A stretch of DNA of 64,000 nt from an uncultured Chloroflexales bacterium. GTDB taxonomy: Bacteria; Chloroflexota; Chloroflexia; Chloroflexales; Chloroflexaceae. The notes beneath the pieces were generated by a model. That model saw nothing but the letters and a program-made list of their open reading frames with translations, was not told where the DNA came from and ran no database searches. This document shows positions 35,083 to 39,957 of the stretch, one piece after another (positions within the stretch are counted from its first letter, which is position 1; the number at the start of each line of letters is the position of its first letter). The DNA lies in NCBI GenBank assembly GCA_937918935.1, contig CAKZSI010000028.1, positions 124,001 through 188,000 of the forward strand, read 5' to 3'. The translations under genes were made by a program, and so were the position numbers.

Positions 35083-35279
35083 TCGGGCACTCTATGCCAT
35101 CAGGACAACGTGAGGTGTTCCCGGGGCGGCGTAGTTCTTCCCACACCCCTCCAGGATGGTATCACACGCCTGATGCAAATGGGCAAGCCCCGGACCCCGG
35201 GTTTTTGCCCGAACAATATCTTTCGGTATGGTATTATAGCATAGATGTGCTAATTTTTTCCCTGCCTGAGGAGGCGCGC

Positions 35280-37472
35280 ATGGCTCGCCCCATCTCCCTC
35301 GTACTCCTGCTGCTCACGCTGCTCGTCGCCCTGCCGCCGGGCGCAACCGCTCGCGCCCAGCGCGCCGATGGGCTCGACCAGCCGCTGCTCGCTGCCAACC
35401 TGTGTGGTTCGGGGGATGGCTCGGAGACCCACTTCACCATTGCCGCCACCGGCGACACCTTCCCCCACGAGAACATCCAGGCCGTGGGCGAGAGCCAGGG
35501 CTACGATGTGCTTTTCGATGCTGTGCGTCCCTTCCTCCAGGCCGCTGACCTGGCCTACACCAACTTCGATGGGGCCATGCTTGAAGGCTCACCGATCAGC
35601 GGCTATCCCCTGTTCAACTTCAATCCGGCCCTGGCCACCGCGCTGCGGAACGCGGGGATCGACGTGGTCTCCACCGCCAACAACCACATCCTCGACCGCG
35701 GCCCCGAGGGCATTGATGCCACCCTGCGCGTGCTGGAGGCCAATGGCATCCTGCAACACGGCACATCCCCGATCGGCGCCGTCCGCCCGCCGTATTTGCC
35801 GCTGACCCTCACCCGCGACGGCGTCAGTCTGACAATCGGCTTCATTTCGGCCACCTGGGGCGCCAACGGCATCCCCGATCCGCACGGGCAGGTCAATCTG
35901 CTCTACGAGTCGAGCGAATATGGCCAGCAGGGGGGCGTGCGCCAGCGCATCCTCGACGCCATTGCCCAGGCCGATCGGGAGACCGACCTGGTGCTGGTCG
36001 CGGCGCACTTCGGCTTTGAGTACCAGTTCTACCCCCACGAGAGCCAGATCGATGCCGTCCGGCGCATGGCCGAGGCCGGCGCCGATGTGATCCTCGGGGC
36101 GCAGTCGCATACTCTGCAACCGGTGGACATTCTTGACGTCAGCGGGCGCAGGACCCTGGTGATCTACTCGCTGGCGAACTTTCTGGCCTCCCAGGGGGCC
36201 TTTCAGGCCAGCGCCTATTCGGCCACGTCGGTGATCTTCTACGTCGGCCTGGCCCGCGGCGCCGATGGTCAGGTGCGGGTGACGGGCTACCGCTATCTAC
36301 CGACCATTCACATTGACAACGACACGCGCCCGGCGCCCATCCAGCCCGGCAGTGCCGATGACGTGATCGCCCACGTCCGAACGATGATGCGCGATCCCGG
36401 CGGCCTGCGCCAGGTGTCGCCGGAGCCGCCCGCGCCCGGGGCGATCATCCCGGTGTGTCTTCCGATTGCCCTGGCCGAAACGCCCGAGACGCCAATCACC
36501 GGTGACTTTGCCCAGCACTACGCCACGCTCGGCGGAACGCTCCCCCGTCCTCTAACCGACGGGATTGCCGTACTGGGGCTGCCCCTGGGGCCGGCGGTGA
36601 CCGAGCCTGCCGGTGACTGCGCCACGCCCGTGCCGGTGCTCTACACCGAGCGGCAACGTCTCGAGCTCCACGCCGCCGAGCCATGGCCCTTCCGCGTTTC
36701 TGGCTCGCTTCTGGGGGTCGAGGCCTTCACCCGCCGCTACCCTGGCGTGGCGCTCCAGCGGCGCACCGATCTCGCGGCTACGGACGCCTTCGCCGATCCG
36801 CGCTTTCGAGCCTTCTACGAGCAGTTCGGCGGTCTGGCGGTTTTTGGCTACCCCATCTCTGGCCCGCTCAACGAAGAGCATCCCGAGACGGGTGAACCCG
36901 TGACAGCGCAGTATTTCGAGCGCGCCCGCTTCGAAGTGGCGCCCGGCGCCCCTCCCGGCGCGCCGCTGACCGAGCAGGTGCGCCTTGGCCTCCTCGGGCG
37001 CGAGTTGCTCGCCGCCGGCGGGGTGGCCAGGCTCTGCCCGGGGTCCCCGGCGACCGACCTGTCCGTCCCGGCAGGAGCGACCCGAGCCGGACGGACCGAC
37101 GGGGGAGCGCCGCGTAGCGCATCAGAAGGCGGGCGCGGGTGGCTCGGCGGCCTGTTCGACCGGACGTTCAATCAAACCGTCTGGTGGTTGCCGATGCTGG
37201 CCCTGACTGCGCTGCTGGTGGTGCTGGTGACCTTGGTCGGGTTTGCCGTGGCCGACTGGCGCTCCTTTCGCCGGCAAGGCGCCAGGCGGCGCGCCTATCG
37301 GCGCCGGCGCAGCGCCTTCGAGCGGCTGGGCCAGGCGCCCGTGCAGGCGGTGCCTGCCCGCGAGACCCGGGAAACTCGCGCCACGGCCCATACCGGCACG
37401 ACCGTCCGCCAGGCGCCGCTCGCCCCAGACGATGATGACGAGGCCTTCTTGCGGCGTCTCCTGGAAGAATAA
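35280..37472 (+). CDS. CapA-like phosphoesterase with FGYP repeats and membrane anchor
   Basis: The 730-residue protein has a signal peptide (1-24), then a CapA/PgsA metallophosphoesterase-like domain (about 45-340). That domain has AATGDTFPHE, NFDGAML, STANNHILDRG, AHFGFEYQFYPHES, GAQSHTLQP and YSLANFLASQ. Two repeats of the FGYP...QYFERARFE...LGLLGREL type common in Chloroflexota follow (about 400-580), then a membrane segment (about 633-655) and a basic cytosolic tail. CapA proteins take part in export or assembly of poly-gamma-glutamate or related polymers. The start is ATG 35280 after TGAGGAGGCGCGC. The gene has its own AT-rich upstream region. Confidence 0.82.
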   Translation: MARPISLVLLLLTLLVALPPGATARAQRADGLDQPLLAANLCGSGDGSETHFTIAATGDTFPHENIQAVGESQGYDVLFDAVRPFLQAADLAYTNFDGAMLEGSPISGYPLFNFNPALATALRNAGIDVVSTANNHILDRGPEGIDATLRVLEANGILQHGTSPIGAVRPPYLPLTLTRDGVSLTIGFISATWGANGIPDPHGQVNLLYESSEYGQQGGVRQRILDAIAQADRETDLVLVAAHFGFEYQFYPHESQIDAVRRMAEAGADVILGAQSHTLQPVDILDVSGRRTLVIYSLANFLASQGAFQASAYSATSVIFYVGLARGADGQVRVTGYRYLPTIHIDNDTRPAPIQPGSADDVIAHVRTMMRDPGGLRQVSPEPPAPGAIIPVCLPIALAETPETPITGDFAQHYATLGGTLPRPLTDGIAVLGLPLGPAVTEPAGDCATPVPVLYTERQRLELHAAEPWPFRVSGSLLGVEAFTRRYPGVALQRRTDLAATDAFADPRFRAFYEQFGGLAVFGYPISGPLNEEHPETGEPVTAQYFERARFEVAPGAPPGAPLTEQVRLGLLGRELLAAGGVARLCPGSPATDLSVPAGATRAGRTDGGAPRSASEGGRGWLGGLFDRTFNQTVWWLPMLALTALLVVLVTLVGFAVADWRSFRRQGARRRAYRRRRSAFERLGQAPVQAVPARETRETRATAHTGTTVRQAPLAPDDDDEAFLRRLLEE

Positions 37473-37653: not shown

Positions 37654-39753
37654 TCACCTCAGCACGGCGCTCAACGTGGTCGGCTGCAACCCCAGGGCCC
37701 TCATGCGATCGAGATAGCCAGGCAGCGCCGCGGCGCTCTTGTGGCGGCCGTGCAGCAACAGAATGGCGCCCCTGGCCTGGGCGGGATCGGCCGCGACGCG
37801 CTCCAGCCAGGCCGGCATGCCTGCGTCGTCGGTGCTCCAGTGATAGGCGATGTAACCGGCCCGGCCGATCGTTTCGACCATCTGCGGAGTGGAGTTGCCA
37901 TAGGGGAAGCGGAAGTACGGACGAGTGCTGCCGCCGGTGATCTCGCGCGCGATGCGCTCGGTTTCCACCAGTTCGTTGACCGCCCCATCGGCGCCGATGG
38001 CCGAGAAGGCCGGGTGGGTCAACGAATGATTACCAAGTTCGTGACCACGACTCACAATCGCCTTCGCTGCCTCGGGGAACGTCTTCATCCAGCGGCCGGT
38101 CACGAAGAAGGTACCCTTGATCTGGCGCGCGTCGAGCGCGTCGAGGATGGCGTAGAGACTCGCGTCGTCAATTTCAATATCGAAGGTCAGCGCCACCAGG
38201 GGTTGGTCGAGGTTGCCCTGTTTGATGATCGGCGCTGGGGGCAGGCTCTCGCCGTCCTGGTAGACCGGCACGACCAGGGGCCGCCCGGGGCGCAACGTTT
38301 CGCCAGGCAGCAGGCGATTGAGCGCGGCCAGGGCGGCGGGGTCGCTGCCGGCGCGCCGGGCGATGCTTTCGAGCGTGTCGCCGGCGGCCACCACGGTGCT
38401 GAAGAAGGTCCGCGGTTCGGGGACGCTGGCGGGGCCTGGCGGCGGACCCGGCTGAGCCGATGGGCTGGGCGTCGGCGCAGACGTCGGTCCTTTTTTTTCA
38501 TCTCCGGCGGCGCTCGATGGCAGCGCCCGGCTCACCAGGGTGATCAGCACCAGAATGGCCGCGGCCAGGGCGATCAGTCGCGGCTGCAACAGTGGATTGC
38601 GGGATGGAGCGGATCGTGGCGGCCGTTTTACCGGCTTGCCCACCCTGGTGGTATCCACAACGAACGCGCGCGCGGTTTGCAGGGCGTGATTCATCGCCGC
38701 CGTGGCGCGACGCGGGCGGAGCGGGGCGCCCACGGGCATACGCGGGGGCGCGGCAGCGACCTCCGGTGGCGGTTCCACGCGCGCCGGACCGGGAACATAG
38801 CTGAACAGCGCCTCGGTACCGGGCACGAGCCAGAGGCGTGGGGCGCCCCACGGCTCCTCCTGGCCCTCCAGCGCCGCCCGTCCATCGGTAACCGCCAGAT
38901 CGACCGGGTCACCAGCGGTGATGGCCGTGTAGCACGGCCCGCAGACGCTCGCGACCTGCGTGGCATCGAGGCCGCCAAGGGCCAGGGCGGTAATGCCGAG
39001 ATCGTCGTGCAGGCGGTTGGCCACCGCGCTCAGGGCCGCCGCGTCGGCATCGGCGCTGGCGGCCAGCGTAACCAGGCGCAGATCGGGATGGTCGGCGAGA
39101 ATGCTGGCCAGACCGCCCCCGTCCAGCCCTCGTCCGAGCCGCAGCCGGGCGGCGTCGCCCTGGCCCCAGGCGTCGGTCGCGATGATGTGCAGCATGTGGC
39201 AGGGCTCTTCGGCCAGAGCCTCGCGCAGGGCAAGGGGGTCACTGTCGCGCAGGAGATCGATCACCATGCGCCCGGACCGCGCCGCGTCGGCAAGGGCGTG
39301 GCCCAGCGGAGCGATCGCCGCTTCGGCGTCGGGGGCGCAGGCGATCAGCAGGCGCACCGGGCCGCTGAGGGGCAGGGGGCGCGGCGGCGAGCGCAGTTCT
39401 CCCGAGCGCACCAGGGTGTAATCCTCGCGCACGGCGGGGCGCCAGGGGCGGCTCTGGCCAAGGGTGGCCCACTCCCAGGGCAGCCCGGCCAGCTCGGGCG
39501 CGGCATAGAGCTGGATCTGGATGCGCGCGCCGGCCTCATCGGCGCCCCGGGCCACGTCAATCAACAACTGGCGCACCGGATTGGGAAACAGCGCCCGCCC
39601 GACGGCCAGGCTCAGCGCCTCAGGCTCCGCCGAAGCGTCAGGCAGCACCAGGGGCGCCTCGGCCCCACGCCCTGCGGCAAAGGCACGCACCACATAGTTC
39701 GCCGGACCGCGCCCGCTGACGCTCAGCTGAAAGGGAATCACAGCAGAGCTCAT
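37654..39753 (-). CDS. CHAT-like domain fused to LysM and polysaccharide deacetylase
   Basis: The 699-residue protein has four parts. Residues 1-320 follow the CHAT protease fold (ELAGLPWEWATL, SGPVRLLIA, CHMLHIIATDAWG, RLVTLAASADA), but the catalytic His and Cys positions read Thr193 and Ser233. A membrane segment (about 392-408) and a Pro/Ser linker lead to one LysM domain (about 450-497). A NodB deacetylase domain follows (about 518-699) with TFDIEID, HSLTHP, RFPYGN and LLLHG, so the active residues look intact. The C-terminus should face outside and deacetylate glycans, and the CHAT-like part should be cytosolic. This combination is unfamiliar to me. It is 221 bp downstream of the GHL10 gene. 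Confidence 0.85.
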   Translation of the reverse strand: MSSAVIPFQLSVSGRGPANYVVRAFAAGRGAEAPLVLPDASAEPEALSLAVGRALFPNPVRQLLIDVARGADEAGARIQIQLYAAPELAGLPWEWATLGQSRPWRPAVREDYTLVRSGELRSPPRPLPLSGPVRLLIACAPDAEAAIAPLGHALADAARSGRMVIDLLRDSDPLALREALAEEPCHMLHIIATDAWGQGDAARLRLGRGLDGGGLASILADHPDLRLVTLAASADADAAALSAVANRLHDDLGITALALGGLDATQVASVCGPCYTAITAGDPVDLAVTDGRAALEGQEEPWGAPRLWLVPGTEALFSYVPGPARVEPPPEVAAAPPRMPVGAPLRPRRATAAMNHALQTARAFVVDTTRVGKPVKRPPRSAPSRNPLLQPRLIALAAAILVLITLVSRALPSSAAGDEKKGPTSAPTPSPSAQPGPPPGPASVPEPRTFFSTVVAAGDTLESIARRAGSDPAALAALNRLLPGETLRPGRPLVVPVYQDGESLPPAPIIKQGNLDQPLVALTFDIEIDDASLYAILDALDARQIKGTFFVTGRWMKTFPEAAKAIVSRGHELGNHSLTHPAFSAIGADGAVNELVETERIAREITGGSTRPYFRFPYGNSTPQMVETIGRAGYIAYHWSTDDAGMPAWLERVAADPAQARGAILLLHGRHKSAAALPGYLDRMRALGLQPTTLSAVLR

Positions 39754-39913: not shown

Positions 39914-39957
39914 AAAAAAGGGAGGGTCTGGGAGGACACAGCCCTCCCAGACCCTCC
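39914..39957 (-). terminator. Intrinsic terminator of the GHL10 gene
   Basis: GGAGGGTCTGGGAGG (39921-39935) and CCTCCCAGACCCTCC (39943-39957) are perfect 15-bp arms around a 7-nt loop. Read on the minus strand the hairpin is followed by CTTTTTTACA, so it is a strong terminator 18 bases after the GHL10 stop. Its sequence is also a copy of repeat module B. Confidence 0.85.

Follow-up and report, generated by a model that had tools for sequence, protein, structure and literature searches.

A transmembrane CHAT-derived pseudo-protease joined to a LysM-NodB half in Chloroflexales

Introduction

What does a caspase-fold domain without protease chemistry do on one side of a membrane when the same polypeptide continues on the other side as a putative wall-acting enzyme? 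The question is raised by a 699-residue protein encoded in a 64-kb window, the whole stretch of 64,000 nucleotides analysed here, from an uncultured member of the Chloroflexales. The roles usually considered for pseudo-caspases are those of decoys or of regulators of proteolysis. A preliminary description of the locus had read the protein as an inactive-looking CHAT protease domain followed by one membrane segment, a LysM domain and an intact NodB deacetylase domain, had suggested that the inner domain senses a ligand and had found the domain order in no described system. These claims are taken up below where the respective results are given.

Results

Layout of the gene and the membrane segment

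The open reading frame, its translation and its homologues show that the frame named in the preliminary description is real, intact and conserved; its features are listed in Table 1. Pfam matches confirm the LysM domain and the presence of a NodB domain, and no TPR was matched by Pfam in the 699-aa protein. The p20 family PF00656 (Peptidase_C14) likewise gave no match in this protein, nor was it among the families matched by 26 homologues.

Table 1. Features of the pseudo-CHAT gene and its upstream flank; positions are those of the 64-kb window.
Feature	Residues	Position	Strand	Basis or remark
Whole gene, pseudo-CHAT / TM / LysM / NodB	1-699	37654..39753	-	ORF and translation; ATG start
Pseudo-CHAT domain (predicted cytosolic)	1-320	38794..39753	-	profile, PF12770, HMM and Foldseek matches
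Thr193, catalytic-His position	193	39175..39177	-	aligned column
Ser233, catalytic-Cys position	233	39055..39057	-	aligned column
Cytosolic linker (predicted)	321-390	38584..38793	-	basic before TM
Single TM segment	~391-411	38521..38583	-	hydropathy
Pro-rich linker (predicted extracytoplasmic)	412-452	38398..38520	-	28% Pro
LysM domain	453-497	38263..38397	-	PF01476 match 454-496, E 4e-8, over cut-off
NodB/CE4 domain	514-699	37657..38214	-	PF01522 Polysacc_deac_1 match 514-634, E 5.6e-25
Altered CE4 motif 1, D525-I526-E527	525-527	38173..38181	-
Intrinsic-terminator-like hairpin, upstream of gene		39921..39957	-	17 pairs and T run

One hydrophobic stretch separates the two halves, as had been claimed, and a corresponding segment follows the pseudo-CHAT domain in 41 of the 42 homologues examined, fused or not. 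Because it is present even in members without NodB, we regard the membrane-anchored pseudo-CHAT as the conserved core of the family. An N-inside topology is likely for the 699-aa protein, judged from the basic residues that precede the segment (the 20 residues before it carry a net charge of +6, and the charge after it is 0). Charge is higher before than after the segment in 31 of 41 members; the remaining 10, mostly forms of family f4 that consist of the N-terminal half only, show no positive-inside bias. Among the homologues the cytosolic linker measures between 10 and 86 aa, and in the other fused members the outer Pro-rich linker is 43-83 aa long. Linkers that are this long, flexible and variable in length around a single membrane segment fit tethering better than rigid signal transfer.

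The only A8/T8 run of the window (G+C content 67%) lies at 38491-38498, six codons past the membrane segment and thus between the halves, where slippage would give the CHAT domain and membrane segment followed by about 100 unrelated residues. A programmed frameshift at this run was rejected because the run is not conserved: in close relatives it reads A6 or A5 or is missing.

Residues 1-320 belong to the CHAT lineage

Judged on the protein itself the Pfam check fails, as residues 1-320 give no match to PF12770 even at E = 10, whereas 11 of 26 homologues do match this family (best E 1.9e-8) and two homologues from f4 pass its curated cut-off (24.6 and 34.6 bits against 24). A profile made from 26 homologues of residues 4-320 found a single match among PDB sequences, the SAVED-CHAT protease 8tl0 (E 7.8e-9). 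The family profile also retrieves canonical CHAT domains in Chloroflexota with E values from 1e-10 to 1e-37; these are PF12770 members (85-120 bits) and align with the pseudo-CHAT family column for column. The AlphaFold model of the pseudo-CHAT domain, calculated from a four-sequence alignment, is of low confidence (pLDDT 56, pTM 0.49), and although the top five Foldseek matches to it are all chains of 8tl0 (E 8e-6 to 8e-5, TM-scores about 0.35), this fold match serves as supporting evidence only. It is thus the homologues and profiles that identify residues 1-320 as CHAT by descent, and the CHAT pattern that the preliminary description had recognized is borne out by the profile matches. SAVED-CHAT, the nearest solved CHAT domain by profile and fold, differs in being a canonical protease with a SAVED sensor domain from type III CRISPR and in having no membrane segment, LysM or NodB.

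The catalytic dyad is lost throughout the family and the domain is under selection

In an alignment with canonical CHAT domains, Thr193 occupies the column of the His of HxxxHG and Ser233 that of the Cys, so that the replacements first noted in this one protein agree with the aligned columns. The catalytic Cys is present in none of 43 distinct family members, while the His column holds a His in just one (G060, by chance, as its relatives have Arg); both dyad residues together occur in 0 of 43. Canonical CHATs, by comparison, carry the His in 12 of 14 cases and the Cys in most. Since the dyad is missing across all 43 members, its loss is ancestral to the family and no local mutation. Two family members have a Cys one position earlier than the catalytic column. 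A further dead CHAT domain, outside this family, was seen in a 1619-aa frame (L118), in which a second CHAT domain at 913-1209, beside one canonical CHAT, has Pro and Asn in the His and Cys columns.

Within the genus the CHAT part has a dN/dS of 0.13-0.27 and the LysM-NodB part one of 0.10-0.22, meaning that purifying selection on the pseudo-CHAT domain is as strong as on the deacetylase half. These values rule out decay of the domain and argue that it is functional although catalytically dead.

The deacetylase-like half has an altered metal site

The NodB half was modelled with a pLDDT of 77 and matches CE4 structures in the PDB by both sequence and fold (Foldseek E 1.8e-14). Its site is, however, not intact as had been stated. 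The first motif of CE4 enzymes reads TFDD, in which the first Asp acts as base and the second as metal ligand (PMC5855634, PMC4505593); here it reads TFD525-I526-E527 (TFDIE), with Ile526 in place of the canonical metal Asp. Each of the 15 fused members, intact or contig-cut, has TFDIE, and so does a split one. The base D525, H576 and H580 (motif 2, HSxxH), R615 (motif 3, R-F-P-Y) and H668 (motif 5) are all kept, without variation across the fused clade. Both sequence and fold place the PDB entries of BA3943 nearest; this protein is annotated as a CE4 family pseudoenzyme and also has no motif-1 metal Asp but, unlike the 699-aa protein, has lost the motif-3 Arg; both residues are missing in the sequence of 6hpa. 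The nearest NCBIfam model is PdaB (TIGR02764), with a score far below the equivalog cut-off, and neither PdaB-like nor BA3943-like proteins carry a CHAT domain. The altered motif and a pseudoenzyme as nearest structure make catalysis less than certain. On the other hand, MurNAc deacetylases lack the same Asp and yet are active (PMC5855634), and stand-alone NodB relatives from Chloroflexales also miss this Asp while keeping the other residues. Deacetylase activity appears likely.

One old fusion with repeated loss of a half

The family (E < 1e-45) occurs in only two families of the host's order, f1 and f4. Full-length homologues, 72-90% identical, occur in all four other members of the genus, and a search for the same architecture in Chloroflexota gave 14 intact fused genes in total (five in the genus, three in g5 and six in g23/g27) and one cut at a contig end. 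The single-contig 5.8-Mb genome G042 carries a fused gene of 707 aa. The pseudo-CHAT domain with membrane segment, without the outer half, is present in many other genomes, including the Chloroflexus group; among the carriers of the family are presumably Chloroflexus aurantiacus and Roseiflexus RS-1. In the loci with the N-terminal half only, a tblastn search downstream found nothing left of the outer half.

The pseudo-CHAT tree requires at least four changes between the fused and unfused state. All fused LysM-NodB halves, by contrast, fall into one clade (support 100, stem 1.03), which points to one ancient fusion, and a stand-alone protein from G017 lies inside this clade. In that protein (L027) the LysM-NodB unit stands behind a different, signal-peptide-like N-terminus, and the genome has no pseudo-CHAT gene. 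The simplest history that the trees suggest would be one fusion before the split of Chloroflexaceae and Roseiflexaceae, after which one half was lost repeatedly, in most cases the outer. A mobile origin on plasmids was rejected, as no plasmid record covers the query and only the NodB half is matched, at less than 60% identity.

Two disrupted copies might suggest that the fusion arose in assembly or that two genes are read through by chance. One is in G009, whose two halves occupy different, overlapping frames; the other, in G016, has its CHAT part interrupted by an in-frame TAG and its NodB motifs degraded (entries L037 6001-8210 and L010). These two cases are sequencing error or decay, and the 14 intact fusions from several genera, one of them on a single-contig genome, together with the single clade of fused C-terminal halves refute this explanation practically beyond doubt.

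Of 60 genomes tested, 37 have a pseudo-CHAT gene, and every one of these also has the type II reaction-centre family PF00124; 12 of the 23 genomes without the gene have this family too. The co-occurrence is confounded by kinship, but a comparable link with phototrophy has been proposed for pseudo-orthocaspases (PMC6426788).

Genomic context

The terminator-like hairpin separates the gene from a co-directional GHL10 gene upstream, and with a convergent neighbour on the other side the gene is probably its own transcription unit. This neighbour, at 35205-37472 of the window, codes for a PGA_cap (CapA-like) protein whose long C-terminal extension carries a membrane segment and a basic tail. Genes for LCP, NAGPA and PGA_cap proteins are located upstream in the host genus and in G016. 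In f4 a GT4 glycosyltransferase gene lies at most two genes upstream on the same strand, mostly adjacent, in nine of nine loci (L104, L105, L106, L107, L113, L114, L115, L099, L108), and here the two genes probably form one operon. The association with envelope-glycan genes is therefore consistent, with partners differing between the two families. In the window the dcw (division/wall) cluster follows at 44.4 kb, an adjacency that most homologues do not share. An Rfam scan of the 64-kb window gave no matches.

Discussion

A CHAT-derived pseudo-protease, predicted to lie on the cytosolic side, is thus joined to a putatively extracytoplasmic LysM-NodB half, a composition that profile matches and an old fusion of single origin uphold. 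Selection has preserved the inner half, and in several lineages this half has persisted after the outer one was lost; it is therefore probably a docking or control module rather than a protease. What the members of the family share throughout is the membrane-anchored dead CHAT domain, with the outer half optional, which is why we rank docking or tethering first: that the protein is a membrane-spanning adaptor, whose pseudo-CHAT domain docks the wall-acting half onto a cytosolic partner, seems to us plausible and just short of probable. According to this model a CHAT domain without protease chemistry would have been retained as a cytosolic protein-binding module. It would dock onto a predicted partner, most plausibly the machinery that builds or divides the envelope, and so fix the site of the protein. 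The one membrane helix and the flexible Pro-rich linker would place the LysM-NodB unit into the wall, where LysM would bind peptidoglycan and NodB would N-deacetylate it or, should the altered metal site be dead, only bind it. In lineages without the outer half, the anchored pseudo-CHAT domain would keep its docking role alone.

The best working analogue is HetF of the filamentous cyanobacterium Anabaena, a divisome component built of CHAT, membrane segment and TPR (PMC8406250). It is through binding to FtsI, its two-hybrid partner, that HetF is brought to septal peptidoglycan synthesis, and this binding is abolished by mutation of E130 or L278, both within the CHAT domain as delimited by its authors (aa 1-555; PMC8406250). 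Like the 699-aa protein, HetF combines an N-terminal CHAT domain with one membrane segment following it, occurs in a filamentous phototroph and is linked to peptidoglycan synthesis. It differs in having TPRs and neither LysM nor NodB and in being a putative protease, with a conserved active site that is reportedly required for its function; for this last reason it is no precedent for a pseudo-protease, and for this and its TPRs it does not belong to the same family. A link to division would rest on this analogy and on the dcw neighbourhood in the window.

A somewhat different role is that of an inside-out receptor, close to the ligand sensor of the preliminary description: the pseudo-CHAT domain would bind a cytosolic ligand or protein, and a signal crossing the membrane, for instance by oligomerisation, would switch the deacetylase on or off. 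The topology, the age of the fusion and the selection on the pseudo-domain are compatible with this, and the nearest solved relative, SAVED-CHAT, belongs to a ligand-activated filament, meaning that a CHAT domain can respond to assembly. However, the protein has no sensor domain such as SAVED, the pseudo-CHAT with its membrane segment exists alone in many genomes and the deacetylase half in at least one, and variable Pro-rich linkers on both sides of the single helix offer no rigid coupling. That the halves are separable counts for docking over allosteric coupling, and together with the long flexible linkers it disfavours the ligand sensor, which we consider unlikely.

Equally improbable in our estimate is a double pseudoenzyme, in which the CE4 domain is dead as well and the protein only serves to tie a cytosolic complex structurally to peptidoglycan. 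The replaced metal Asp in every fused member and the pseudoenzyme BA3943 as nearest structure would fit, and a membrane segment with LysM would suffice for tethering. Against it stand the invariant remaining residues, with E527 as a possible substitute ligand, the active MurNAc deacetylases that manage without the same Asp, and the stand-alone relatives that retain the rest of the site.

The inner domain could also act as a decoy or dominant-negative partner of the cell's active CHAT proteases, like dead eukaryotic caspases, with LysM-NodB as a later rider. The genome has four other CHAT genes, all ordinary PF12770 matches, its relatives have up to 27, the pseudo-CHAT domain persists without NodB, and bacterial conflict systems commonly contain inactive caspase effectors (PMC7159879). 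The gene has no PADLOC match, though, and at the examined loci no conserved CHAT or defence neighbour was found, for which reasons a defence gene was rejected; envelope-glycan genes adjoin instead, and the vertical, near single-copy inheritance is unlike that of defence islands. We hold this explanation to be very unlikely.

Other known systems share parts of the architecture. Deacetylase-metacaspase fusions have been described in Xanthomonas and relatives (PMC3501461). They resemble the 699-aa protein in uniting a PF01522 deacetylase with a caspase-fold domain, but their order is deacetylase, metacaspase, TPR, the domain is a metacaspase and not CHAT, and the His-Cys dyad is intact in all 17 described. 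Pseudo-orthocaspases are likewise caspase folds with a replaced His-Cys dyad, conserved in phototrophic bacteria, but they belong to the p20 family and not to CHAT; no fusion to a deacetylase was found in the accessible part of the survey cited above, which reports them as absent from phototrophic Chloroflexi (PMC6426788). A search of the accessible literature found no membrane-spanning pseudo-CHAT described, whether by itself or followed by LysM-NodB, and within that literature the statement that no described system has this order stands. The feature itself is well supported.

In a wider sense, the protein may be specific to the phototrophic Chloroflexales lineage and remodel the wall from the inside out, with a dead caspase-fold domain in the cytosol that controls or positions a peptidoglycan-modifying enzyme across the membrane; we offer this tentatively and with considerable doubt. 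What the locus presents is a pseudo-caspase retained at the membrane by selection through the divergence of two families and coupled to cell-wall chemistry. Chloroflexus, having only the half made up of pseudo-CHAT and membrane segment, suits a direct test of the docking idea. Together with HetF, the protein suggests that filamentous phototrophs may use CHAT domains as docking modules in the growth of their envelope.
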